DNA of 40,440 bases from positions 1-40,440 of the IMG/VR virus record IMGVR_UViG_3300045999_006777. One strand, 5' to 3'. Made by a program: the position numbers and the translations under genes. This document shows, piece by piece, positions 3,001 through 39,916 of the stretch (the stretch's first letter is position 1; each line of letters begins with the position of its first letter). Under the pieces are notes generated by a model that saw only the letters and a program-made list of their open reading frames with translations, made no database searches and was not told the DNA's origin. The DNA comes from a virus.

Positions 3001-4657
3001 ATCAACTACCCCAACTGCAACTCTGGCAAATGATACAACGGTAACCATTGCAGATGGACCACTTGGGATGTCGTATTTCTCCAACCCAATATACATCCCA
3101 CCACTTGTAGACTTTAGACTTATCGTTGATAAAGTTTATAGTGACAAATTTTCTGGTTGGACTTTCGGTGAACTCCAGATTATTGATCCTATTGATCACT
3201 TATTCAATGGCAGTAGAAGACGCTTCCCGATCAAAATTGATAGAGAAAATAAAGGCTTCAGAGCTAATCCTAGTTCTTCAATTATTCTTGAATATACCCT
3301 ATTGATCTTTATTAATGGTATTCTTCAAACACCAGGAGAAAGTTACAATTTTAGTGGAAGTAGTTTTATTGTATTCACCGAAGCCCCTAAACAAGGGAGC
3401 ACATGCACCATCCTTTTCTATAGAGGCAATAGTGTAACCGATGTTATTGATGTTGAGGCGACTTCTGTTATTGAGCCAGGAGATAAAGTTAAATTAAACG
3501 ATGATAACGGACTTATACAAAATGAAAGAACCGTCATTGACATTATTTCTTCTGATACAATAGAAACCCTAACATACACTGGCCCCAATGTAATAACAGA
3601 TAGTTCCTATACCAGACCAATAAAAATCTGCAGACAAACTGAAGACACCTTTATTGGACAAAAGGAAATCACAAAAGACAGGGAAGAATACTCTTACATT
3701 ATTGAACCCTCTACCAATTTGATCAGTTCTGTTGGCGTTTCATCTAATATCCTATTTGTAGAAAACTATAAAACACTATTTGATAGCAGCCGCGAAAACA
3801 CTCAATCCTTTTATAGAAATAAGTATAGAATCATTAGTCAAGAAAATGTTATCCCAGCTATTGCATCTGCCAATGTTTCCATCGCCGGAACCATCGCCTC
3901 AATCAATCTTTCTAATCCTGGTTATGGTTATCTCAATCCTCCAGAGATTACAATCGCTCCTCCTGTGGGCCTAGGAACCTCTTCTAGAGCTACTGCAACT
4001 GCATCTATAATTAATGGTTCTATCTCATCTATTTCCATTGCAAACCCAGGATTTGGTTACACCTCTTCGCCTTATGTACTAATTGAAAGTCCACAAGCTA
4101 CGACTGAAGTTGTTACATCTACTTCTGTCTCCGGTGACTTTGGTATAATCTCTGGCATTGCAAAAACCTCCGTTGGTGTCGCCTCTACTGGTCTTGTATT
4201 TAATCTTTATATTCCTCAAGATTCTCCGCTAAGAAATCCAGCTATTGTTGGAACTGCAATAACTGTAAGTGGTATTCAAACAGGTTATTATTTTGTTGTA
4301 AACAATACCTTTGTTGGAACTGGTGTTACTTCTCTAGACGAAAATAACAACATCATATCTAATGGTAATGATTATTTAAACAATGTCTATCAGGTTGCAA
4401 CTGTCTCAACTGGTCAATCCTATGTTGCGGGTGTTGGCACTACAACCATCACGTCGGTCACTGTTAGCACAGTTTCCAATAATATAACTGGAATTGGAAA
4501 TACACAAATCTACGGAACTTATAGTTGGGGTAGAATTGTAACTCCAATTGGTGGTACAGAAAATGCCTATGTTGTCAACAAAAATGGACTCACCGGAATT
4601 AGTACATCACCTATACTTAAGCGATTTAACCCTCTTAAGTTGAAAAATTATACCTAA
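2..4657 (+). CDS. Giant virion structural protein in the gp7 slot (baseplate wedge), 5'-truncated
   Basis: The frame is open from the left edge of the window (codons from base 2), so the true start lies outside; the internal TTG at 176 is not a credible start. About 1551 residues are visible. The gene lies directly before gp8, the place of T4 gene 7, so a baseplate-wedge role is inferred from position. The segment around 3120-3430 (WTFGEL, then RRRFP, LLIFINGILQTPGE and FTEAP motifs) matches a large virion protein I know from T4-like cyanophages. GxGY-type beta repeats occur near 1265-1430 and 3915-4080 (NPGFGF, NPGYGY, NPGFGYTSSP). Between them, at about 1670-3090, sits a region unlike the rest, listed separately. 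The C-terminus (GTYSWGRI...ILKRFNPLK) is also typical of the family. Sure that it is a virion protein; the gp7 equivalence is only positional. Confidence 0.85.
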   Translation, partial: VGNRVLPIDDISGEFNGVTGEFNLKTNSKDIFSRNIEAINLASNTITINNHYFTNGEKLNYTFIGSPIGITTTTIVGVGTTNKLPSTVYVIKYDESTIGLASSATSALKETVEPFIFTSVGIGSSHVLSSLDNNTRVLISLGGVIQSPIVSTATTTLCTAAVGVGSTYIRFSSVKQFSSGDFVKIDDEVLKITAVGIASTNAVYVNRGWVGTAVTSHTSNSIVYKVDGEYNIVNNKLHFTEAPPAPSPVGMSTVNPDSVDYAGITTTLKFNGRVFTKNGVSNTTDHAYYNNFVFDDISHNFNGITTSFNLTSNGQNITGFATNTGSILINQVFQEPSEFNGATTTFGNYALKETAGITSIRFLSLPGNQVYNVNAYDTPVGGVIKQYSQIQGYGLQPLVSAAGTAIVSMAGTIQSIVVRNKGTGYRSGLQTVNVGVYASTTGIATVQNIGIATISSGRVVSVAITNPGFGFTHTNPPIVKFDDPLPYTDIPLSYYSPSTGIGTGARANITVGMGQSIVDVQLTNTGFAYKPGDVLTIGVAGTVGIPTALPSDDLPDTWVMQYTTPAVGETWNVEYGGSQLFVSDEGDIYMLGELPNSSGRWLKAIKLSPAGTILWVKDLNKVSGFGGSASELGLSLRICASGENVLIGSFGLGTGRRIICLDSTTGSTKWIKNISLNLTDSYTFLGFYFNKVTKNFYLIFTSYSNSLLVYNVGLVVLNGEGTVINSVRYTINGSGDVNLNYVNKITNILTKPDGSIIITCIKNVAPFGQTPITRAVIINADAIGANPVYRELGDSVSTTDISFGCILRNGLCAFRGRLGSSSWPDLYLINPTTGVVVASKKLVISTQNALSNGSLMQISERSDGSIVVTGWRTAGLSINNQWVTQPPPADANAELQQVYMAVFSSDLTTMIEYKEMGLFPPLSSGSGRLVLGADITRDRYVNLLEGYTYGWAITSTTLTRTPYRYQCAQSRFAQFASATTTLPITLTDSAIPVTSTPSYTSTTPTATLANDTTVTIADGPLGMSYFSNPIYIPPLVDFRLIVDKVYSDKFSGWTFGELQIIDPIDHLFNGSRRRFPIKIDRENKGFRANPSSSIILEYTLLIFINGILQTPGESYNFSGSSFIVFTEAPKQGSTCTILFYRGNSVTDVIDVEATSVIEPGDKVKLNDDNGLIQNERTVIDIISSDTIETLTYTGPNVITDSSYTRPIKICRQTEDTFIGQKEITKDREEYSYIIEPSTNLISSVGVSSNILFVENYKTLFDSSRENTQSFYRNKYRIISQENVIPAIASANVSIAGTIASINLSNPGYGYLNPPEITIAPPVGLGTSSRATATASIINGSISSISIANPGFGYTSSPYVLIESPQATTEVVTSTSVSGDFGIISGIAKTSVGVASTGLVFNLYIPQDSPLRNPAIVGTAITVSGIQTGYYFVVNNTFVGTGVTSLDENNNIISNGNDYLNNVYQVATVSTGQSYVAGVGTTTITSVTVSTVSNNITGIGNTQIYGTYSWGRIVTPIGGTENAYVVNKNGLTGISTSPILKRFNPLKLKNYT
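1670..3090 (+). other. Beta-propeller-like domain inserted in the gp7-slot protein
   Basis: Within the large structural protein, the GxGY-repeat pattern (ending near KPGDVLTIG) stops and resumes only at DFRLIVDKVYSDKFSGWTFG. Between them lie six or seven units of roughly 45-60 residues. Each pairs a strand such as GDIYMLGE, ENVLIGSF, GSIIITCI or GSIVVTGW with a second strand such as LKAIKLSPAGTILWVKDL, RIICLDSTTGSTKWIKNI or DLYLINPTTGVVVASKKL. This alternation of a D-G-turn strand and an 'xxLDxxTGxxxWxK' strand is characteristic of PQQ/WD-like beta-propellers. It may be a ligand- or glycan-binding ornament on the baseplate or a fibre. Fold and function are inferred from pattern alone. Confidence 0.5.
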
Positions 4658-17389: not shown

Positions 17390-17824
17390 ATGGGACGACC
17401 CAAAAAATTTAGTAAACTAAATGAAACATTCAATCTCGCAGAGCCAGTTGAGGTTTCTGCAGAAGTTGTAGAAAGTTCCAATGCAATTGAAAAATATGAT
17501 GGTCATCTTGAAACAGATTACACATATTCAAGAGACAATTATTACGAGATTATTGAAAAGGGCAAAGAAGCTATTTCAAGTGCCCTTGAACTAGCACAAG
17601 AACTAGACACAGCTAGAGGTTATGAGGTTGTTGGCCATCTTATTAAAAGTGTATCAGATGCAGCAGATAAACTTCTTGATCTACAACTAAAGATGAAAGA
17701 CATCGGAAAAGACGCAAGTAAAAAGGGACCATCATCCGTTACTAATAATGCGGTATTCATTGGCACAACTTCAGAAGCACTTAAACTAATCAGAGAGCAA
17801 ATTAAAGGTAATGAAGATAAATAA
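17390..17824 (+). CDS. 16: Small terminase subunit gp16
   Basis: 144 residues. The central helical part (YYEIIEKGKEAISSALELAQELDTARGYEVVGHLIKSVSDAADKLLDLQLKMKDI, in separated motifs) matches T4-like gp16, which forms a ring that regulates the gp17 motor and recognises DNA for packaging. The C-terminal FIGTTSEALKLIRE motif is also typical. A TGAGGAG ribosome binding site (17377-17383) includes the gp15 stop and sits 6 bases before the ATG, suggesting translational coupling. The gene overlaps the next by 14 bases. T4 gp16 has 164 residues. Confidence 0.92.
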   Translation: MGRPKKFSKLNETFNLAEPVEVSAEVVESSNAIEKYDGHLETDYTYSRDNYYEIIEKGKEAISSALELAQELDTARGYEVVGHLIKSVSDAADKLLDLQLKMKDIGKDASKKGPSSVTNNAVFIGTTSEALKLIREQIKGNEDK

Positions 17825-20372
17825 TATAGCTAAAGCCGTAAAGGAATTAGAGGTTCGTTTATTAAAAGCCAATGACATCAGCTATGATGGAATTGATATT
17901 CTTATGAGAAACATAATGAAATCCCATGATCTTACAGCTAAGGAACTTCACTACGGTTTTAAAAACAAACACCATAAGACTCCCGACGATTGGATTAAGA
18001 TGAAAAGAAACCTCAACGAAGACCACAAAGAAATCAAAAGTGGTAGAATGAAAGACGATGAAGGTTATATGGCAAGGGTTGAGCTGGACAGTATTGATAA
18101 GGCAGTAAATCACCTTAGAAAAGCAATAAAAAAGGGAGATCAACAACTTCCAGCATGGGTCCAATCTAAAATCACAAAAGCTGCAGATTACATTGATACT
18201 GCTGCGGAATATCTTGCAAGTAATGAAAGCGTTAATGAGGCAAGCTCTTTTGAGATTAACCCAGATGCACATAAAAAAGCAAGACCTAAACCGGGGACAA
18301 AAAGTATTATAAATGTTGCCACATCTGATTTACCAAATATTAAAAATAGTGAGGTTCTGACCAGAAAAACTGTACTTCTTCCAAAGCTAAAAGAATCAAC
18401 AGTTGTAGAGAGAATCTTAAGCTCACTTAATGAAGATGAAGGTTGTTCATGTGACGATAAAGACACTAAACCAGTAATGAGCATTGGGTCAATTGCAAAA
18501 AAACACAAAGTCTCAGTCGAAGACATTAAAGCTCAGCTGAAAATGGGCATAAAAGTTGAAAGGGAGCATACTACTGACAGAAATGATGCAAAAAACATTG
18601 CACTACAACATTTGGCCGAGCTTCCAGATTATTATACAAAACTCAAAAAAGTAGAAAAGGTACAGACTGAATCTACCATTGTTACCGATTTACTAGGAAA
18701 TCCTAAATTTGAGTTTATTGATCTCATTAAGCCCGATAAATTACAGGAATCTGGCACTCTACATCATTGGTTCAAAGGTTCAAAATCTAAAAATGGTAAG
18801 CCTGGCTGGGTTCAGGCTGATGGCTCTCCATGTGCTAATGAAGAAGGAGAAAAATCAACACCAAAATGCTTTAGCAGTGGTAGACTAGAAGCCCTAAAGG
18901 AAAAAGGCAAAGAAGGAGAGAAGATTATAAATTCTGCCGTTCGTCGTAAGCGTAAGTATGATAAAGAACAGCAGGAGAAAACTGGGGGAGCAAGCCCCAC
19001 AAATGTCAAAACTTTTGCAAAAGGTAAAAAAGATCGTAATTATGTAAAAGCAGAACCTTCTCTTAAAGAATCCCTAGAAATTCAAGAAGCTAGTAAAGAT
19101 AGACCTGGAAAAGGGAGCGGACAAAAAGATGCCTGCTATCAAAAAGTTAAGAGTAGATACCGAGTATTTCCTAGTGCCTATGCCTGTGTTCCAGAAAATA
19201 GCACAAAATCTCTAACAAAAGAGGGTTGGAAGACAGTAAATGAATTGCGAATTGGAGAAGAAATATTAACATTTAATCTAGAAAAAGATGAGTTAGAGTT
19301 TAAACCAATTTTAGATATTCACAGATACAAGAATGTCAAAACAAACGTAATCCAAAGTGATGATAGTGGATTTGTTTTTGAATGCACAGATAATCATAAA
19401 TGGGTTGTCAATAGTCTAGATCAAAAAGTTTCTTCAGAATCATTAAATGTTATGTCTCTTTTAGAGACAAAAGATTTACTTGAAAAGAATACAAATAAAA
19501 GACTGGTCATCTCCGCTCCATATAAAGGAGAGATTCCAGAAGTAGAGCAACTTGATGATTTCATATTATCCGAATTTTTAAATGGTGGATTTGTAACTTG
19601 GGAAAGCACCAAAGGTAAAAAAACTTATGAGTTTGATTATACAAGTAATAATAGGGTTAAAGACACCACTAATTTAAAATTGGTAGAAGAAAAGGAAACA
19701 GACGTTTGGTGTCCTGAAACTGAAAATAATACTTGGGTTATGTGGCAAGAGACAGATGGTAAAGGTATAATCACTATAACCGGCAATTCTGGTGCATTGG
19801 TGAAATGTCGTAAAGTTGGAGCAGCAAACTGGGGGAATTCTAAAGTAGAAGAGGCAACCTTGCCAGTTCAAAATGGTCAGGTAATGCAGATTCTTTTCTC
19901 GTGGAGAGGAAAGATGATGGCTAGTCAATTATTCTTTCCACAGATTCGTATTCCATCTAGGAAAGAAGTTTCATATGCAATTACACAAGTTTATCCAGAG
20001 GCCAAGGTTTTAAGCTATAAAGTAGCAAGCCAAAATGTTGGCCAACCACTCATCCAAATTCCCAATAGCCACTCAAAGAACTATCTTCTTCAGAATAAAA
20101 CTATCGGAGAAGATGTTGAATATTTTGACGAAGCAGGTCCTAGTCTTTCCGTTGGTAGAGGAGAAAAGCTCCCAGTATCAAGGGGTGGTGGCCTAACCGC
20201 CAAAGGGCGAGCAAAATATAATAGGGCAACGGGCTCCAATCTTAAGGCTCCTGTTACTGGAAAAGTTAAAAGAGGCAGTAAGGCATGGAAACGCCGCAAA
20301 AACTTCTGCAGTCGTTCTAGAAGTTGGAAAGGACCGAGGGGGCTAGCAGCTCGCCGTCGCTGGAGATGCTAA
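17811..20372 (+). CDS. Multi-module protein between terminase genes, interrupted by an intein
   Basis: 853 residues before splicing, 652 after. It reads as a string of small modules that I recall as separate recurring units in cyanophage proteins: YDGIDILMRNIMKSHDLTAKELH..F...H..TPDDWI (residues 25-62); LPAWVQSKITKAADYID (about 117-133); a DUF5661-like unit KHKVSVEDIKAQLKMGIKVEREH...HLAELPDYYTKL (about 230-278); a DUF5872-like LHHWFKGSK...GWVQADGSPC (about 318-340); KDACYQKVKSRYRVFPSAYA|SGALVKCRKVGAANWG (split by the intein); a module with FFPQIRIPSRKEVSYAITQVYPEAKV; and a basic Gly-rich DUF6321-like end. The very basic C-terminus suggests DNA or capsid binding. Position between 16 and 17 suggests a late or packaging role. 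Function unknown; module names are from memory. Confidence 0.75.
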   Translation: MKINNIAKAVKELEVRLLKANDISYDGIDILMRNIMKSHDLTAKELHYGFKNKHHKTPDDWIKMKRNLNEDHKEIKSGRMKDDEGYMARVELDSIDKAVNHLRKAIKKGDQQLPAWVQSKITKAADYIDTAAEYLASNESVNEASSFEINPDAHKKARPKPGTKSIINVATSDLPNIKNSEVLTRKTVLLPKLKESTVVERILSSLNEDEGCSCDDKDTKPVMSIGSIAKKHKVSVEDIKAQLKMGIKVEREHTTDRNDAKNIALQHLAELPDYYTKLKKVEKVQTESTIVTDLLGNPKFEFIDLIKPDKLQESGTLHHWFKGSKSKNGKPGWVQADGSPCANEEGEKSTPKCFSSGRLEALKEKGKEGEKIINSAVRRKRKYDKEQQEKTGGASPTNVKTFAKGKKDRNYVKAEPSLKESLEIQEASKDRPGKGSGQKDACYQKVKSRYRVFPSAYACVPENSTKSLTKEGWKTVNELRIGEEILTFNLEKDELEFKPILDIHRYKNVKTNVIQSDDSGFVFECTDNHKWVVNSLDQKVSSESLNVMSLLETKDLLEKNTNKRLVISAPYKGEIPEVEQLDDFILSEFLNGGFVTWESTKGKKTYEFDYTSNNRVKDTTNLKLVEEKETDVWCPETENNTWVMWQETDGKGIITITGNSGALVKCRKVGAANWGNSKVEEATLPVQNGQVMQILFSWRGKMMASQLFFPQIRIPSRKEVSYAITQVYPEAKVLSYKVASQNVGQPLIQIPNSHSKNYLLQNKTIGEDVEYFDEAGPSLSVGRGEKLPVSRGGGLTAKGRAKYNRATGSNLKAPVTGKVKRGSKAWKRRKNFCSRSRSWKGPRGLAARRRWRC
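19185..19787 (+). other. Intein (201 aa) in the multi-module protein
   Basis: The extein motif KVKSRYRVFPSAYA continues as SGALVKCRKVGAANWG only if residues 459-659 are removed. The insert begins with Cys (CVPENSTKSLTKEGWKTVNELRIGEEILTF), a standard block A. Block B has the T-x-x-H form (ECTDNHKWVV). It ends with a WCPETENNTWVMW segment (block F) and IITITGN, followed by Ser as the +1 residue. The usual penultimate His is replaced by Gly, as in other phage inteins with a TGN end that I recall. I see no LAGLIDADG or HNH motif; a remnant may lie around LDDFILSEFLNGGF. Likely splicing-competent because nucleophiles at both junctions and the terminal Asn are present. Confidence 0.88.
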
Positions 20373-20404: not shown

Positions 20405-23140
20405 ATGCCAGAAGAACATTATCTTGGTAATCCTCTTCTAAAAAAAGCAAACACCGAAATTGCTATTTCACAAGAGCAATTAGTTGAGCTTACTAAGTGT
20501 ACTATTGATCCTGTTTATTTTGCCAAAAATTATATGAAGATCGTGACACTAGATCACGGTCTTCAAAAATTTGGCATGTATCCTTTTCAAGAAAGGATGT
20601 TGAATGCTTTCCATGCCAATAGATTTAATATTGTACTTTGTAGCAGGCAGGCTGGTAAATCTACAACTGTTGTTTCATATCTACTACATTATGCAATTTT
20701 CAATAACAATGTAAATATCGCAGTTCTGGCAAACAAGGCAAGTACGGCAAGAGATCTACTTGGTAGACTACAAACAGGTTATGAAAACCTACCCAAATGG
20801 CTCCAACAGGGCATCCTGTCTTGGAATAAAGGTTCTCTTGAACTGGAAAACGGGTCAAAAATCTTCGCCGCATCCACATCTGCATCGTCTGTGCGAGGTG
20901 GTTCTTATAATGTTATCTTTCTTGACGAATTTGCATTCGTGCCAAGTCAGGTGGCGGATAACTTTATGAGTTCAGTATATCCCACGATCACATCTGGTAA
21001 AGATTCAAAAGTTATTGTCGTATCATGTGTAACTAAAGATACTTATCTACTCACAGAGAGTGGTTACAAAAGAATTGAATCGTTTATTGATAAAGATAAA
21101 ACTGGTGCATACATTACTCCAGAATATTCTGTAAGAGGAAATAATAAGTTCTATTCTAGTACAATTGTTGTAAATCAAGGAAAAGTACCAACGAATATAA
21201 TCAAGACAAAATATGAGACTATTGAATGTTCAGAGTCTCATTATCTTTGGTCTTTTAAGAATGGAACCTATGGTTATAATAAGAGCAAAGATCTATCAGT
21301 TGGTGATTATGTTGCAGTAAAATATAACCAACAAATCTTTGGTGATAATGACCTCATTAATGAAGACTTAGGACCGGTCAATGAGACCCTAGCATTATCA
21401 GTTGGATTATATGTTTCCTCTCCACCCGAAAGGCCGATAACTGTAGATGGTTATTCCCAAGATGAAATAGACGAGGTTCTAACATCTTTAGGGTTTGATA
21501 CATCAACTCAAACCACAAAATGCTTACCGGAAAAAGTTCTGTCATGGTCTAAGAATAATATAATTGCCCTACTACGTGGAATCTTTGATGTACCGGCAAT
21601 TGCTCATTATGGTGGAATTACTCTCAGATGTGTGTCAAGAGAACTTGCTAGGCAGGTTCAACTTTTGATTGCTAATCTAGGAATTTTAGGTTCCTTAGTT
21701 GCTAATGGTGATAATCTCTATCTTATTGAGCTTACTGGTAATTATGCTATTAAGTTTGTAAATGAAATTGGCTTCCAATCAATTCTTAAAGAAACTTATA
21801 CAAAAGAAATTATTCCCTTTTCGTCTTTAATTGATATTGTCCCCGGTTCAAATGTAGTTATCAATCAGGAATCTGTTAATCCCGATGGTCATCCTAGACA
21901 ATTTTTAATGAATAATAAAGATCAATTTTACCTTGGATCTGAGGAGTTTTTTAATGATAATGTTTCTGAAGATCTTATTTGGTTAAAGATTGATGCAATA
22001 GAAAAATCTGAGAATGAGGTTTTTGACGTTTCACTTCCAGATATAGAAGGAGATAAATGGGCACACTCGGTTCTTTATAACAACTTCTTAGGTCACCAGA
22101 CTCCTTATGGAATGAACCACTTTTATAAGATGTGGGATGATGCAATTAAGCAAAAAAATAAGTATATTCCATTGCGTGTGTATTGGCACGATATTCCTGG
22201 GCGCGATCAAAAGTTTAAAGAAGAAACTATTGCTAACATTGGAGAAGTTAAATGGAATGCAGAATTTGAATGTGACTTTCTAGGATCATCAGATACTCTG
22301 ATCAGTGGCATTAAGCTCTCTAACCTAGTTTCAGAACACCCTCTGCGGAGCCATGATCTATTAGATGTCTATGAAGAACCTCAACCGGATAGAATTTATG
22401 TCATCACTGTTGACGTTGCAGAAGGTGTTGAGTTAGATTATTCGGCTTTTGTGGTCTTTGATGTAACAAAGATTCCGTATAGAGTAGTAGCAAAATATAG
22501 AAGTAATCAGATCCCTATTTTAAGATTCCCAGACGTTATTGATCCCGTGGCTAGGGCTTATAATACAGCATATGTTATGTGTGAGGTTAATAATGATTCT
22601 CAAGTTGCCTACATTCTTTATACAGAGTATAGCTATCCTAATATTTTACAAACTAAAACTCTAGGACGAGGTGGACAAGTTGCAGGTCAGAACTTTGGAG
22701 GAAAGGGTGTCAAATATGGAATCAAGATGTCAAAACCAGTAAAAAGAACTGGTTGCCTTAATTTAAAACAATTCATAGAAGAAGATAAACTTATTGTTAC
22801 AGACATAAACATTATTGAAGAGCTTTCAACATTTGTTTCCCGGTATAATAGCTTTAGTGCAGAAGAGGGCAAAAATGATGATCTAGTTGCTTGTCTTATT
22901 CTTTTTGCCTGGTTATGCACACAGGATTATTTTAAAGAAATGACTGAGACAGACATTCGTAAAAAACTCAGAGAGGAATATGAAAAGGAACTAGAGGAAA
23001 ATGATACTATGCCATTTGGTTTTATGTCTAGTAGTCCATCATCAGTCATTTTGGATGGACAAAAAGATTCCGATGGAGCAATCTGGTTTCCAGTAGAAAA
23101 AGAAGATGATATGTCATTTTTCTGGAAATATAACTTTTAA
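20405..23140 (+). CDS. 17: Large terminase subunit gp17 (packaging ATPase/nuclease), interrupted by an intein
   Basis: 911 residues before splicing, 553 after, close to the family's usual length. Walker A is SRQAGKST (residues 80-87), matching SRQLGKTT in T4. Walker B with catalytic acid is VIFLDE (170-175, Asp174, Glu175). The coupling motif, usually S-TP-x-G-x-NHFY, is split by the intein: VIVVS|TPYGMNHFYKMW. The RNase H-like nuclease has Asp670 (VITVDVAEG), Glu727 (CEVNNDS) and Asp825/826 (NDDLVA); the 57-residue gap between the first two equals that between D401 and E458 of T4 gp17. It pumps DNA into the prohead through the gp20 portal and cuts the concatemer. The protein must be spliced for the ATPase domain to be continuous. 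Confidence 0.95.
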   Translation: MPEEHYLGNPLLKKANTEIAISQEQLVELTKCTIDPVYFAKNYMKIVTLDHGLQKFGMYPFQERMLNAFHANRFNIVLCSRQAGKSTTVVSYLLHYAIFNNNVNIAVLANKASTARDLLGRLQTGYENLPKWLQQGILSWNKGSLELENGSKIFAASTSASSVRGGSYNVIFLDEFAFVPSQVADNFMSSVYPTITSGKDSKVIVVSCVTKDTYLLTESGYKRIESFIDKDKTGAYITPEYSVRGNNKFYSSTIVVNQGKVPTNIIKTKYETIECSESHYLWSFKNGTYGYNKSKDLSVGDYVAVKYNQQIFGDNDLINEDLGPVNETLALSVGLYVSSPPERPITVDGYSQDEIDEVLTSLGFDTSTQTTKCLPEKVLSWSKNNIIALLRGIFDVPAIAHYGGITLRCVSRELARQVQLLIANLGILGSLVANGDNLYLIELTGNYAIKFVNEIGFQSILKETYTKEIIPFSSLIDIVPGSNVVINQESVNPDGHPRQFLMNNKDQFYLGSEEFFNDNVSEDLIWLKIDAIEKSENEVFDVSLPDIEGDKWAHSVLYNNFLGHQTPYGMNHFYKMWDDAIKQKNKYIPLRVYWHDIPGRDQKFKEETIANIGEVKWNAEFECDFLGSSDTLISGIKLSNLVSEHPLRSHDLLDVYEEPQPDRIYVITVDVAEGVELDYSAFVVFDVTKIPYRVVAKYRSNQIPILRFPDVIDPVARAYNTAYVMCEVNNDSQVAYILYTEYSYPNILQTKTLGRGGQVAGQNFGGKGVKYGIKMSKPVKRTGCLNLKQFIEEDKLIVTDINIIEELSTFVSRYNSFSAEEGKNDDLVACLILFAWLCTQDYFKEMTETDIRKKLREEYEKELEENDTMPFGFMSSSPSSVILDGQKDSDGAIWFPVEKEDDMSFFWKYNF
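21026..22099 (+). other. Intein (358 aa) in terminase with degenerate LAGLIDADG endonuclease
   Basis: Residues 208-565. It starts with Cys (CVTKDTYLLTESGYKRIESF), has a block-B-like ECSESHYLW and ends NEVFDVSLPDI...HSVLYNNFLGHQ, with Thr as the +1 residue. The terminal residue is Gln, not Asn, a variant known in some inteins. The middle resembles a LAGLIDADG endonuclease: motif 1 at LALSVGLYVSSPP (329-341), motif 2 at LLRGIFDVPA (389-398), followed by GGITLRCVSRELARQVQLLIANLGI, the usual sequence after motif 2. The expected acidic residues (as in GDG and DADG) are missing in both motifs, so nuclease activity has probably been lost while the frame stayed open. Insertion falls in the ATPase coupling motif. 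Confidence 0.92.
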
Positions 23141-26056: not shown

Positions 26057-28210
26057 ATGGCAAAGTTATTTGGATTTTCTATTGAGGATAGTAATAAGTT
26101 ATCCAAAAGTGTAGTTTCGCCGGTCCCCCCAAATAATGATGATGGTTCTGATCATTATTTGACGACCGGCTTTTTTGGCTCTTATGTTGATGTAGAAGGA
26201 GTATATAGAACCGAGTTTGATAAAATCAAACGTTATCGGGAAATGGCGCTTCACCATGAAGTTGATAGTGCCATTGAGGATATTGTAAATGAGGCAATTG
26301 TTTCTGACACTAACGATTCGCCCGTTGAAATTGAACTATCCAATCTAAGCGCTAGTGATTCTTTAAAAAATATCATCAGGAAAGAATTTAAGGGCATTTT
26401 GGAGATGCTAGATTTTGATAGAAAATCTCACCAGATATTCAGAAATTGGTATATTGATGGAAGACTACATTATCACAAACTCATTGACGTAAAAGACCCC
26501 CATGCGGGAATCCAAGATATTCGCTATATTGATTCATTAAAAATTAGAAAAGTTAGGAGACCCAAAAAACAAAAAGGCGAGTCTCTTACGCAAAAGATTT
26601 ATAGTAACCAAAATATTCTTGATCAAGTATTTCCAGATCTAGAAGAATATTTTGTATATAATCCCAAACAGTCATATCCAGTGGGAGCCGCCGATATGTC
26701 TGGCGGTTCGGAAAAAGGCATCATGTTTACAAAAGATTCAATTGCATGTTGTACTTCAGGTCTTAAGGATACAAATAAAGGTACTACCCTCTCATACCTT
26801 GATAAGGCAATCAAAGTCTTAAATCAACTACGAATGATTGAAGATAGTATTGTCATTTATCGTCTTAGCAGAAGCTCAGAGAAAAGAATTTTTTACATTG
26901 ATGTCGGCAATATGCAGAAAGATAAAGTTGAACAATACATGAGAGAAGTTATCTCTAGGTATCGTACTAAGATGAATTATAATAGCACTACTGGTGAAGT
27001 TGATACCTCTCGTAGGTTTATTAGCCTTATGGAGGACTTTTGGTTCCCAACTAGAGAAGGTGGTAGAGGAACAAAGGTTGATACTTTACCTGCTGGGTGT
27101 CTGGCAATGGACACTAAAGTTTCACTATTAGATGGTAGATCTCTTACCATTTCTGAAGTAGAGTCTGAACTAAAACAAGGTAAGGTTGTGTGGACTTATT
27201 CTTGTCATCCTACTACTGGAGAATTTGCACCTGGTCTTGTTTCTTGGGCAGGTATTACACAAAAAAGCGCAAAGGTTCTTAAGATTACTCTTGATAATGA
27301 AGAGAACATTATCTGCACATATGACCACAAATTTCCGATTTATGATCGGGGTTTTGTTGAGGCAAAAGACCTAGAGATTGGTCAGGTAATGATTCCAGTT
27401 CATGGAAACATGGAACAAGAAACAAGTGCTCCTATTGTAACCAACATTGAATACCTAGATGATGAAATTGAAGTGGGAACCCTCACTATTGATTCAGATG
27501 AAACATTACATAACTATCACACATTCTCTCTGGCTTGCGGCATTTATACAAAGAACAGTAATTTAGGCGAATTGACAGACTTAGATTACTTTAAGAGAAA
27601 TCTCTATAAATCACTGAACGTTCCTGAGACACGTATTGGAGGCGATAGCGGTTTCAATCTCGGCCGTTCTACCGAGATTTTAAGAGATGAAGTTAAATTT
27701 ACTAAGTTTGTCGGTGGACTTAGAAAGCGGTTCTCGCAGCTATTCTTAGACTTCCTTGGAACACAACTAATTCTTAAGAATATTGTGACTCCAGAAGACT
27801 GGAAAAAAATGGCCGAACATATTCAGTTTGATTATCTTTACGATAATCATTTTGCCGAGCTTAAAGAATCTGAGCTTTTCACTGATCGTTTAAATATGGT
27901 TTCAATGGCTCAACCTTATGTTGGTAAGTATTTCTCGCAAGATTATCTACGTCGTAAAATTCTCAGACAGACCGATGAGGAAATTATTGAACAAGATGAA
28001 CTTATGGCAAAAGAGATTGAAAGTGGAATTATTCCAGATCCTACTGCTCCAGTCGACCCTCAAACTGGTCTTCCACTAGATAACATTCCACAAGACAATC
28101 AACCACAAGTACAGTCTGATAATAATATTGAGGGGCAATCTGGTAAAGTTCCTGTAACTCCCGACATAAAGGCACCAGAAATTAAAATGCCCAAGGGTGG
28201 GGAAATCTAA
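26057..28210 (+). CDS. 20: Portal vertex protein gp20, interrupted by an intein
   Basis: 717 residues before splicing, 564 after; T4 gp20 has 524. Family motifs include YREMALHHEVDSAIEDIVNEAIV, FKGILEMLDFDRKSHQIFRNWYIDGRLHYHKLID (in parts), RYIDSLKIRKVR, LRMIEDSIVIYRLSRSSEKRIFYIDVGNM, FWFPTREGGRGTKVDTLP, and after the intein NLGELTDLDYFKRNLYKSLNVPETR and FSQLFLDFLGTQLILK. gp20 forms the dodecameric portal through which gp17 packages DNA and which nucleates prohead assembly. The C-terminal tail is rich in Pro and Gln. The intein sits in the conserved segment between VDTLP and NLGELTD. The stop codon is embedded in the next late promoter core. Confidence 0.95.
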   Translation: MAKLFGFSIEDSNKLSKSVVSPVPPNNDDGSDHYLTTGFFGSYVDVEGVYRTEFDKIKRYREMALHHEVDSAIEDIVNEAIVSDTNDSPVEIELSNLSASDSLKNIIRKEFKGILEMLDFDRKSHQIFRNWYIDGRLHYHKLIDVKDPHAGIQDIRYIDSLKIRKVRRPKKQKGESLTQKIYSNQNILDQVFPDLEEYFVYNPKQSYPVGAADMSGGSEKGIMFTKDSIACCTSGLKDTNKGTTLSYLDKAIKVLNQLRMIEDSIVIYRLSRSSEKRIFYIDVGNMQKDKVEQYMREVISRYRTKMNYNSTTGEVDTSRRFISLMEDFWFPTREGGRGTKVDTLPAGCLAMDTKVSLLDGRSLTISEVESELKQGKVVWTYSCHPTTGEFAPGLVSWAGITQKSAKVLKITLDNEENIICTYDHKFPIYDRGFVEAKDLEIGQVMIPVHGNMEQETSAPIVTNIEYLDDEIEVGTLTIDSDETLHNYHTFSLACGIYTKNSNLGELTDLDYFKRNLYKSLNVPETRIGGDSGFNLGRSTEILRDEVKFTKFVGGLRKRFSQLFLDFLGTQLILKNIVTPEDWKKMAEHIQFDYLYDNHFAELKESELFTDRLNMVSMAQPYVGKYFSQDYLRRKILRQTDEEIIEQDELMAKEIESGIIPDPTAPVDPQTGLPLDNIPQDNQPQVQSDNNIEGQSGKVPVTPDIKAPEIKMPKGGEI
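27098..27556 (+). other. Mini-intein (153 aa) in the portal protein
   Basis: Residues 348-500. It begins CLAMDTKVSLLDGRSLTIS, has a WTYSCHPTTGEFAPGLVSWAG segment, and block B as ICTYDHKFPIYDRGFVEAKDL with T-x-x-H. It ends HNYHTFSLACGIYTKN, followed by Ser (+1). Removing it restores TLPAG|SNLGELTD, the portal consensus region. The residue before the terminal Asn is Lys instead of the usual His. There is no room for an endonuclease, so this is a minimal splicing domain. The N-terminal half matches a phage intein type I recognise, often carrying more residues in the middle. Confidence 0.92.
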
Positions 28211-39134: not shown

Positions 39135-39916
39135 TTAGCTATTCGCTTTCCTACATTTATAACCTTTATGATGATTTAAAGAACCAGAAGCGACTGAATA
39201 CATTTTACTTCTAGATAATTGTTTTTCTACACAATAATCCGATAAATTTACAACAAACTCTTCGGTTCCATCTGGAGTTACAACTATCCATTCTTTTTGT
39301 TTAGACTCAATATTTTTCCTTAAAACATCTTCCTTTAAGTTATGTTCTCTAAGTTTTAATTTAACCTCATCAGTTACATGCCTACCTTTGGCCTTTTCAC
39401 TTATTTTTCTTTTATGTTCTTCAGTTTTTGGTTTTCCAGTATGCGCCGCACTGATCTTGTGTTTTACTTCATCAGTACGTTTTCTACCTTTATTAGCCTC
39501 ACTAATTAACCTTTTTGTTTCCTCTGAATGTTTTTTACCATAAAATCCATTTTCTTCCTTAAATCTTTTAATTGGGCGATTTGAAATAAAGAAATTAAGG
39601 AGAACCCATCTTCATCAAAACCTATTCTACCATAATTTAAAATCTGTTCTTCTTCCATTAAGTAAGCCTCCTTTTCTTTAAGATTTTCTTTAATTTTGAT
39701 AACCTCAGGCTCAATACCAATTTTTCTAAGATTTTGAATATGACCCGTTAGCCTTTTATTTTTAGAGTATTCTGGTTTATCTAATAGGTGTTGATAACAC
39801 CTTCCACCTTTACCTTTTCCAACATAAAAGGGTATTCTCGTCGAAGGATTTACTATATTGTAAACATAATAAACGGGTGTTTCATCATAATCCGTAAACG
39901 TCTCTTTTCTAATCAT
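39135..39916 (-). pseudogene. GIY-YIG/NUMOD3 homing endonuclease, split by a frameshift
   Basis: The first frame (39916 down to about 39606) encodes a GIY-YIG nuclease domain: YYVYNIVNPSTRIPFYVGKGKGGRCYQH, with Glu in KEKEAYLMEEEQI. After FDEDG the frame is lost and runs to a stop at 39506. The adjacent frame continues without stops to TAA at 39135-39137: LNFFISNRPIKRFKEENGFYGKKHSEETKRLISEANKG (in parts), three further NUMOD3-type units (GRKRTDE, GKPKTEEH, GRHVTDE), and a C-terminal EWIVVTPDGTEEF...NLSDYC...HHKGYKC domain. One extra G in the GGG run at 39605-39607 would restore DEDGVLLNFF and a 260-residue enzyme. Either a real inactivating deletion or a sequencing error. It starts 1 base after the stop of the upstream gene. 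Confidence 0.88.

Follow-up and report, generated by a model that had tools for sequence, protein, structure and literature searches.

An intein with a degraded LAGLIDADG endonuclease domain in the coupling motif of a T4-like phage terminase

Does the intein that interrupts the large terminase of this virus still carry a working homing endonuclease, or is it now maintained for splicing only? A preliminary description, made from the sequence, had favoured endonuclease decay under selection for splicing only. We analysed the whole stretch of DNA, hereafter the window. This 40,440-base record represents a fragment of a T4-like, cyanophage-like virus; its virion genes are of T4-like type and encode baseplate, tail sheath, T4-type portal and large terminase proteins.

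The insertion site and the splicing domain

The window terminase (Table 1) without its insert is about 59% identical to the terminases of Synechococcus phages that have no intein (e.g. S-SM2). The extein aligns with T4 gp17 (3cpe) over most of its length (E 3e-86). In this alignment VIVVSTP lies opposite IIITTTP of gp17, and the intein falls between residues 2 and 3 of the gp17 TTT motif. Hence, the insert divides the ATPase coupling motif, as had been proposed, and occupies the position between the second and third residues of this motif that defines the C-motif TerL intein allele. We gathered same-site inteins from viral contigs and obtained 84 distinct complete ones, all with the junction S/C.../TP (a slash in a junction marks a splice site). 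A scan of the genome collection with the intein alignment retrieved no relative, so the family is seen here solely in viral contigs. Mutants of the T4 coupling motif lose ATPase turnover and packaging (PMC9958956). The unspliced window precursor should therefore be inactive, and packaging probably depends on splicing.

Table 1. Features of the terminase locus, in window positions.
Feature	Position	Strand	Details
Large terminase gene (T4 gp17-like, TerL) with intein	20405..23140	+	911 aa precursor, 553 aa spliced; Terminase_6N, Terminase_6C
N-extein	20405..21025	+	Walker A SRQAGKST, Walker B IFLDEF, VIVVS at end
Intein, class 1, 358 aa	21026..22099	+	Cys1, block B SxxH, His357, Gln358, Thr+1
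N-terminal splicing half, residues 1-106	21026..21343	+	alignment and model
Decayed LAGLIDADG endonuclease domain, residues 107-318	21344..21979	+	alignment, HMM, rates, deletion map
LAGLIDADG motif 1 remnant GLYVSSPP, residues 127-134	21404..21427	+	GLYVAEGY in intact relatives
First-repeat deletion points	21458..21478	+	11 + 26 residues missing relative to L001 (157-167, 173-198), strands of DNA-binding beta-sheet
LAGLIDADG motif 2 remnant GIFDVPA, residues 185-191	21578..21598	+	GMFDGDG in intact relatives
C-terminal splicing half, residues 319-358	21980..22099	+	ends HSVLYNNFLGHQ
C-terminal splice junction GHQ/T	22091..22102	+	sequence
C-extein	22100..23140	+	opens TPYGMNHFYKMW..., then RNase H-like nuclease domain

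The proposed limits of the intein also held (C1...Q358/T+1, the Gln being residue 565 of the precursor). Several features place it in class 1. Its nucleophile Cys1 is invariant in the aligned members (73/73), the block B pattern (T/S)xxH is present as S69-E-S-H72, followed by the block F/G histidines H347 and H357, and Q358/T+1 fits the rule of Asn or Gln before Cys, Ser or Thr. All residues invariant over the 73 members, including Cys1, His72 and Asp334, are kept in the window. In profile searches an intein N-terminal region was recognised below the cut-off, together with a LAGLIDADG_3 domain. The structure model (pLDDT 93) has a Hint fold, which matches the GyrA intein 1am2 (Z 20.1) and the RecA splicing domain (Z 16.6). 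Given the 911-aa open frame, the conserved splicing-block residues and the confident fold, the insert is not a chance pattern. As the sequence comes from a viral fragment of 40 kb, one might suspect an error of sequencing or assembly, or a defunct insertion in a terminase pseudogene. This is scarcely credible for 911 codons free of stops and frameshifts, with precise junctions and splicing residues kept, and for an insert with an independent same-site relative (L006) about 61% identical to it over the 254 residues available. The conserved residues suggest that the window intein splices: an N-S shift at Cys1 would be followed by transfer to Thr+1, cyclisation of Gln358, as in other Gln-ended inteins, and release.

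The terminal Gln followed by Thr had been regarded as a rare combination, which proved wrong. Among 33 complete loci found through an N-terminal pattern, and thus with an unconstrained C-terminal end, the last residue is Gln in 27 and Asn in 6, with Thr next in all of them. GHQ/T is therefore the rule of the family and no mark of decay. The pattern GHQ/TP matched at least 120 stretches, a number that does not gauge the frequency of Gln because the pattern demands it. Gln/Thr-ended inteins are thus common in environmental T4-like phages. Gln-ended inteins splice through cyclisation of Gln; this is slow in the Pol II inteins, whereas the CIV ribonucleotide reductase intein splices efficiently, and better with Gln than with Asn (PMC4031507, PMC8175363). 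The CIV intein and those of P. abyssi and P. horikoshii Pol II resemble the window intein in their Gln end, able to cyclise and to support splicing, but come from other hosts, and that of P. abyssi Pol II is slow with Gln (PMC4031507, PMC8175363).

Inteins at this site are known from other phages. Terminase inteins of mycobacteriophages, one of them in the C-motif, have been reported and shown to splice (Kelley et al. 2016, PMC5050341). Like the window intein, TerL6-f interrupts the C-motif (coupling motif) of a Terminase_6 TerL, and that of Chandler spliced in a reporter assay (PMC5050341). The parallel drawn here concerns the site; the hosts are mycobacteriophages and no decay series was described. 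A further case is the large intein in the TerL of the Microcystis phage Mic1, which shares with the window the C-motif site (LLTG/C...HN/TPKGYG), a cyanophage terminase and an endonuclease domain, at 23% identity (PMC7156551). It differs in its Asn end, in belonging to a siphophage and in the presence of a second intein in the terminase nuclease domain. Cultured phages gave remote matches only, and among those inspected Mic1 was the sole case at the C-motif site: in phage Perkons the terminase intein is near Walker A, and the terminase of Synechococcus phage B23, a gapped match taken up as a same-site candidate, was rejected because its intein is at Walker A.

The endonuclease remnant

The catalytic acids that end the two LAGLIDADG motifs, and on which activity depends, are replaced in the window, as first noticed: alignment with intact relatives shows changes from E to S in motif 1 and from D to P in motif 2. 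The structural acid of motif 2, D188, is retained. The core had been considered complete in length, and this does not stand. Relatives of the nearest clade with intact motifs have 431-440 aa, against 358 in the window, and in comparison with one of them (L001) 81 residues are missing, spread over nine gaps of which the largest fall in the first LAGLIDADG repeat. This shortening strengthens the case for decay.

We modelled the window intein with AlphaFold from the 73-sequence alignment (mean pLDDT 93, pTM 0.92). The model comprises a Hint domain and a LAGLIDADG remnant in which the motif helices are kept. Intact LAGLIDADG domains have two complete alpha-beta-beta-alpha-beta-beta-alpha repeats; here the second is complete and the first lacks its strands, the motif 1 helix leading through a loop to the next helix. 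In the model of the intact L001 (pLDDT 95) the first-repeat strands are present and both repeats are complete. Consistently, the Pfam LAGLIDADG_3 match in the window is confined to the second repeat. The best structural match is the TliVMA intein (Z 28.5, rmsd 3.9, 335 aligned), and PI-PkoII (27.3), a TliVMA deletion variant, PI-PfuI and PhoVMA (Z 23.1) also match; the best Foldseek E-value is 1e-15. The structure prediction thus agrees with the suggested LAGLIDADG origin, in reduced form, and gives no other fold.

PhoVMA (PDB 7qst) and TliVMA (7qss), among the closest solved folds, form a close parallel: decay of an intein LAGLIDADG domain was shown there with structure and assay (PMC8966425, 2022). 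As in the window, both motifs of a class 1 intein are without their acids and the LAGLIDADG domain is incomplete; the same-site relative TliVMA is active. PhoVMA differs in its host, an archaeal V-ATPase, and in what was lost, block E (the motif 2 helix) being truncated there whereas the sheet of repeat 1 is lost in the window. The preserved helix and strands of the second repeat, together with D188, could be read as signs of a nuclease still active through substitute residues or another chemistry. We consider this highly improbable, given Ser and Pro at the two catalytic positions, the absence of the first-repeat DNA-binding sheet, the relaxed constraint described below and the inactivity in assays of PhoVMA, which has similar losses (PMC8966425). 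The window intein has probably ceased to cut DNA.

Relaxed constraint and repeated losses

The two parts of the intein evolve very differently. Over the alignment columns of the splicing domain, the window shares 66-77% identity with its intact neighbours, and these share 62-77% with one another. In the nuclease columns these values are 36-43% and 51-69%. On a fixed topology, the HEN/splicing ratio of tip lengths is 7.5 for the window and 7.4-15.7 for three other decayed members, against 0.66-3.5 for ten intact ones. Across 73 non-redundant members of the family, the window ratio (3.83) exceeds those of all 55 intact inteins (maximum 3.08). Decayed and intact members contrast less strongly family-wide (p 0.011) than within the near clade; part of the reason is that the nuclease part is not accelerated where a point loss is the only change. 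Third codon positions are about 30-60% identical between the window and its relatives, near saturation and too saturated for dN/dS. Hence, there is good support for endonuclease decay with splicing alone under selection: evolution proceeds at a normal rate in the splicing domain and several times faster in the nuclease part, and the catalytic acids and the DNA-binding sheet are lost while the reading frame stays open. A recent horizontal transfer of the window intein found no support, as intein and extein are alike in their identities to the neighbours.

Alternatively, the remnant might no longer be a nuclease but be kept as a scaffold or regulator of splicing, the timing of splicing then controlling packaging. 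The remnant still has 212 residues and is confidently folded in the model, mutualism between Hint and HEN domains is known from other inteins (PMC8966425), and a conditional role was put forward, as a proposal, for the Mic1 terminase inteins (PMC7156551). Yet the sequence of the remnant changes several times faster than that of the splicing domain, and same-site relatives have shrunk to 312 and 254 aa with their splicing residues intact. In L018 the nuclease remnant has been nearly removed in nature. The remnant thus looks dispensable, and we regard such a role as unlikely.

We therefore favour, with a probability of about 0.88, a decayed-endonuclease intein under splicing-only constraint and passively inherited. 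The history would have begun when a class 1 intein, in which a homing endonuclease with two LAGLIDADG repeats was nested, invaded the coupling-motif site in the terminase of a T4-like phage. Selection on the endonuclease would then have been lost in the window lineage, with replacement of both acids and deletion of about 81 residues, including the first-repeat DNA-binding sheet. The splicing halves would have stayed fully constrained, since DNA could not be packaged with the coupling motif still interrupted, and the intein would now be passed on as a passive, non-homing element.

Similar losses are found throughout the family. Both catalytic acids are kept in 65 of the 84 same-site inteins and at least one is lost in the other 19. 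All inteins of up to 406 aa lack an acid (11/11), and none below 416 aa has both. Members such as L056 (438 aa) and L113 (456 aa) lack an acid although they are of full length, which suggests point loss as the earlier step and deletion as the later one. The site thus holds full-length intact inteins, full-length ones with one acid lost, truncated ones and a near-mini intein of 254 aa. Changes to acid loss fall on at least seven well supported branches of the splicing tree and at least nine of the C-extein tree; hence, the losses were repeated. A single decay origin for the window, L016, L017 and L018 was rejected by AU tests against one clade of decayed copies (p 0.006 for the splicing domain, 3.5e-7 for the extein), although for the splicing domain pairs such as the window with L018 were not rejected. 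One and the same hairpin segment of 10-11 residues (L001 275-284) is missing from all four short members of the nearest clade. This might reflect shared rather than separate decay; our guess is a parallel loss of an exposed DNA-contact loop.

In one pair (L012 and L016), one intein is intact and the other decayed. The flanking exteins are 98-100% identical in amino acids over 100 residues and the inteins are 84% alike in their splicing part. At third codon positions the identity of their N-exteins declines with distance from the junction, from 78% to 48%, a pattern that co-conversion would produce.

Vacant sites and other inteins

The site is empty in 79 of 80 viral contigs (the best 80 by N-extein similarity). 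Under the homing-cycle model, decay is expected once vacant sites run out. Hence, either decay did not wait for local fixation, or our sample does not represent local populations. It is possible, at somewhat less than even odds, that at the terminase coupling motif all stages of decay coexist and were reached independently many times while vacant targets are still common, in a window phage none of whose three inteins seems to carry a working endonuclease. Decay may then not need the exhaustion of vacant targets, unlike in the usual homing-cycle account.

Inteins with inactive nucleases and C-motif inteins of terminases were already known; the novelty lies in how many inteins are gathered at one site and in the gradation among them. 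Structural study has dealt with one pair, that of PhoVMA, whereas at the coupling-motif site at least 7-9 losses arose independently, alongside intact relatives and many alleles that have no intein. Whether acids are lost first and residues deleted later, and how vacancy relates to decay, thus become questions that sequence and assay can address. The natural shortened inteins may serve protein engineering.

The window has two other inteins. The T4-type portal gene (26057-28210) contains a 153-aa mini-intein (27098-27556, + strand; end KN/S). Its same-site relatives in L260, L262 and L275 contain a large nested insert that includes an HNH-like stretch (HHxDxNRxNNxPxNL); the window copy thus appears to be endonuclease-free too. 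A gene with no assigned function (17811-20372) contains a 201-aa intein (19185-19787, + strand), whose complete relatives have 278-279 aa and an extra middle segment absent from the window copy. As both lack the segments of their relatives, all three window inteins seem, as judged from these comparisons, to be nuclease-free. Elsewhere in the window, an ORF at 39506-39916 (- strand) starts with YVYNIVNP...FYVGKG and resembles a GIY-YIG nuclease.

Some relatives have more complex terminases. The terminase of L001 has, upstream of position 3001, two Walker A inteins three residues apart (PRQ/../CGK/../STT); these look like class 3 inteins (no N-terminal nucleophile) and bring its inteins to three with that of the C-motif. 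In L012, L016, L017, L055, L140 and L056 the C-extein stops after about 60 residues and runs into an apparent short N-part of a split intein. A split-intein C-part (end SHN/C) lies further downstream in L012, L016 and L055, with an endonuclease-like ORF in between in L016, which we take to resemble the AceL-TerL fractured-gene arrangement. In L030, L048, L074, L078 and others, another intein seems to end (SHN/TGG or similar) about eight residues upstream of the C-motif intein, leaving one short strand flanked by two inteins.
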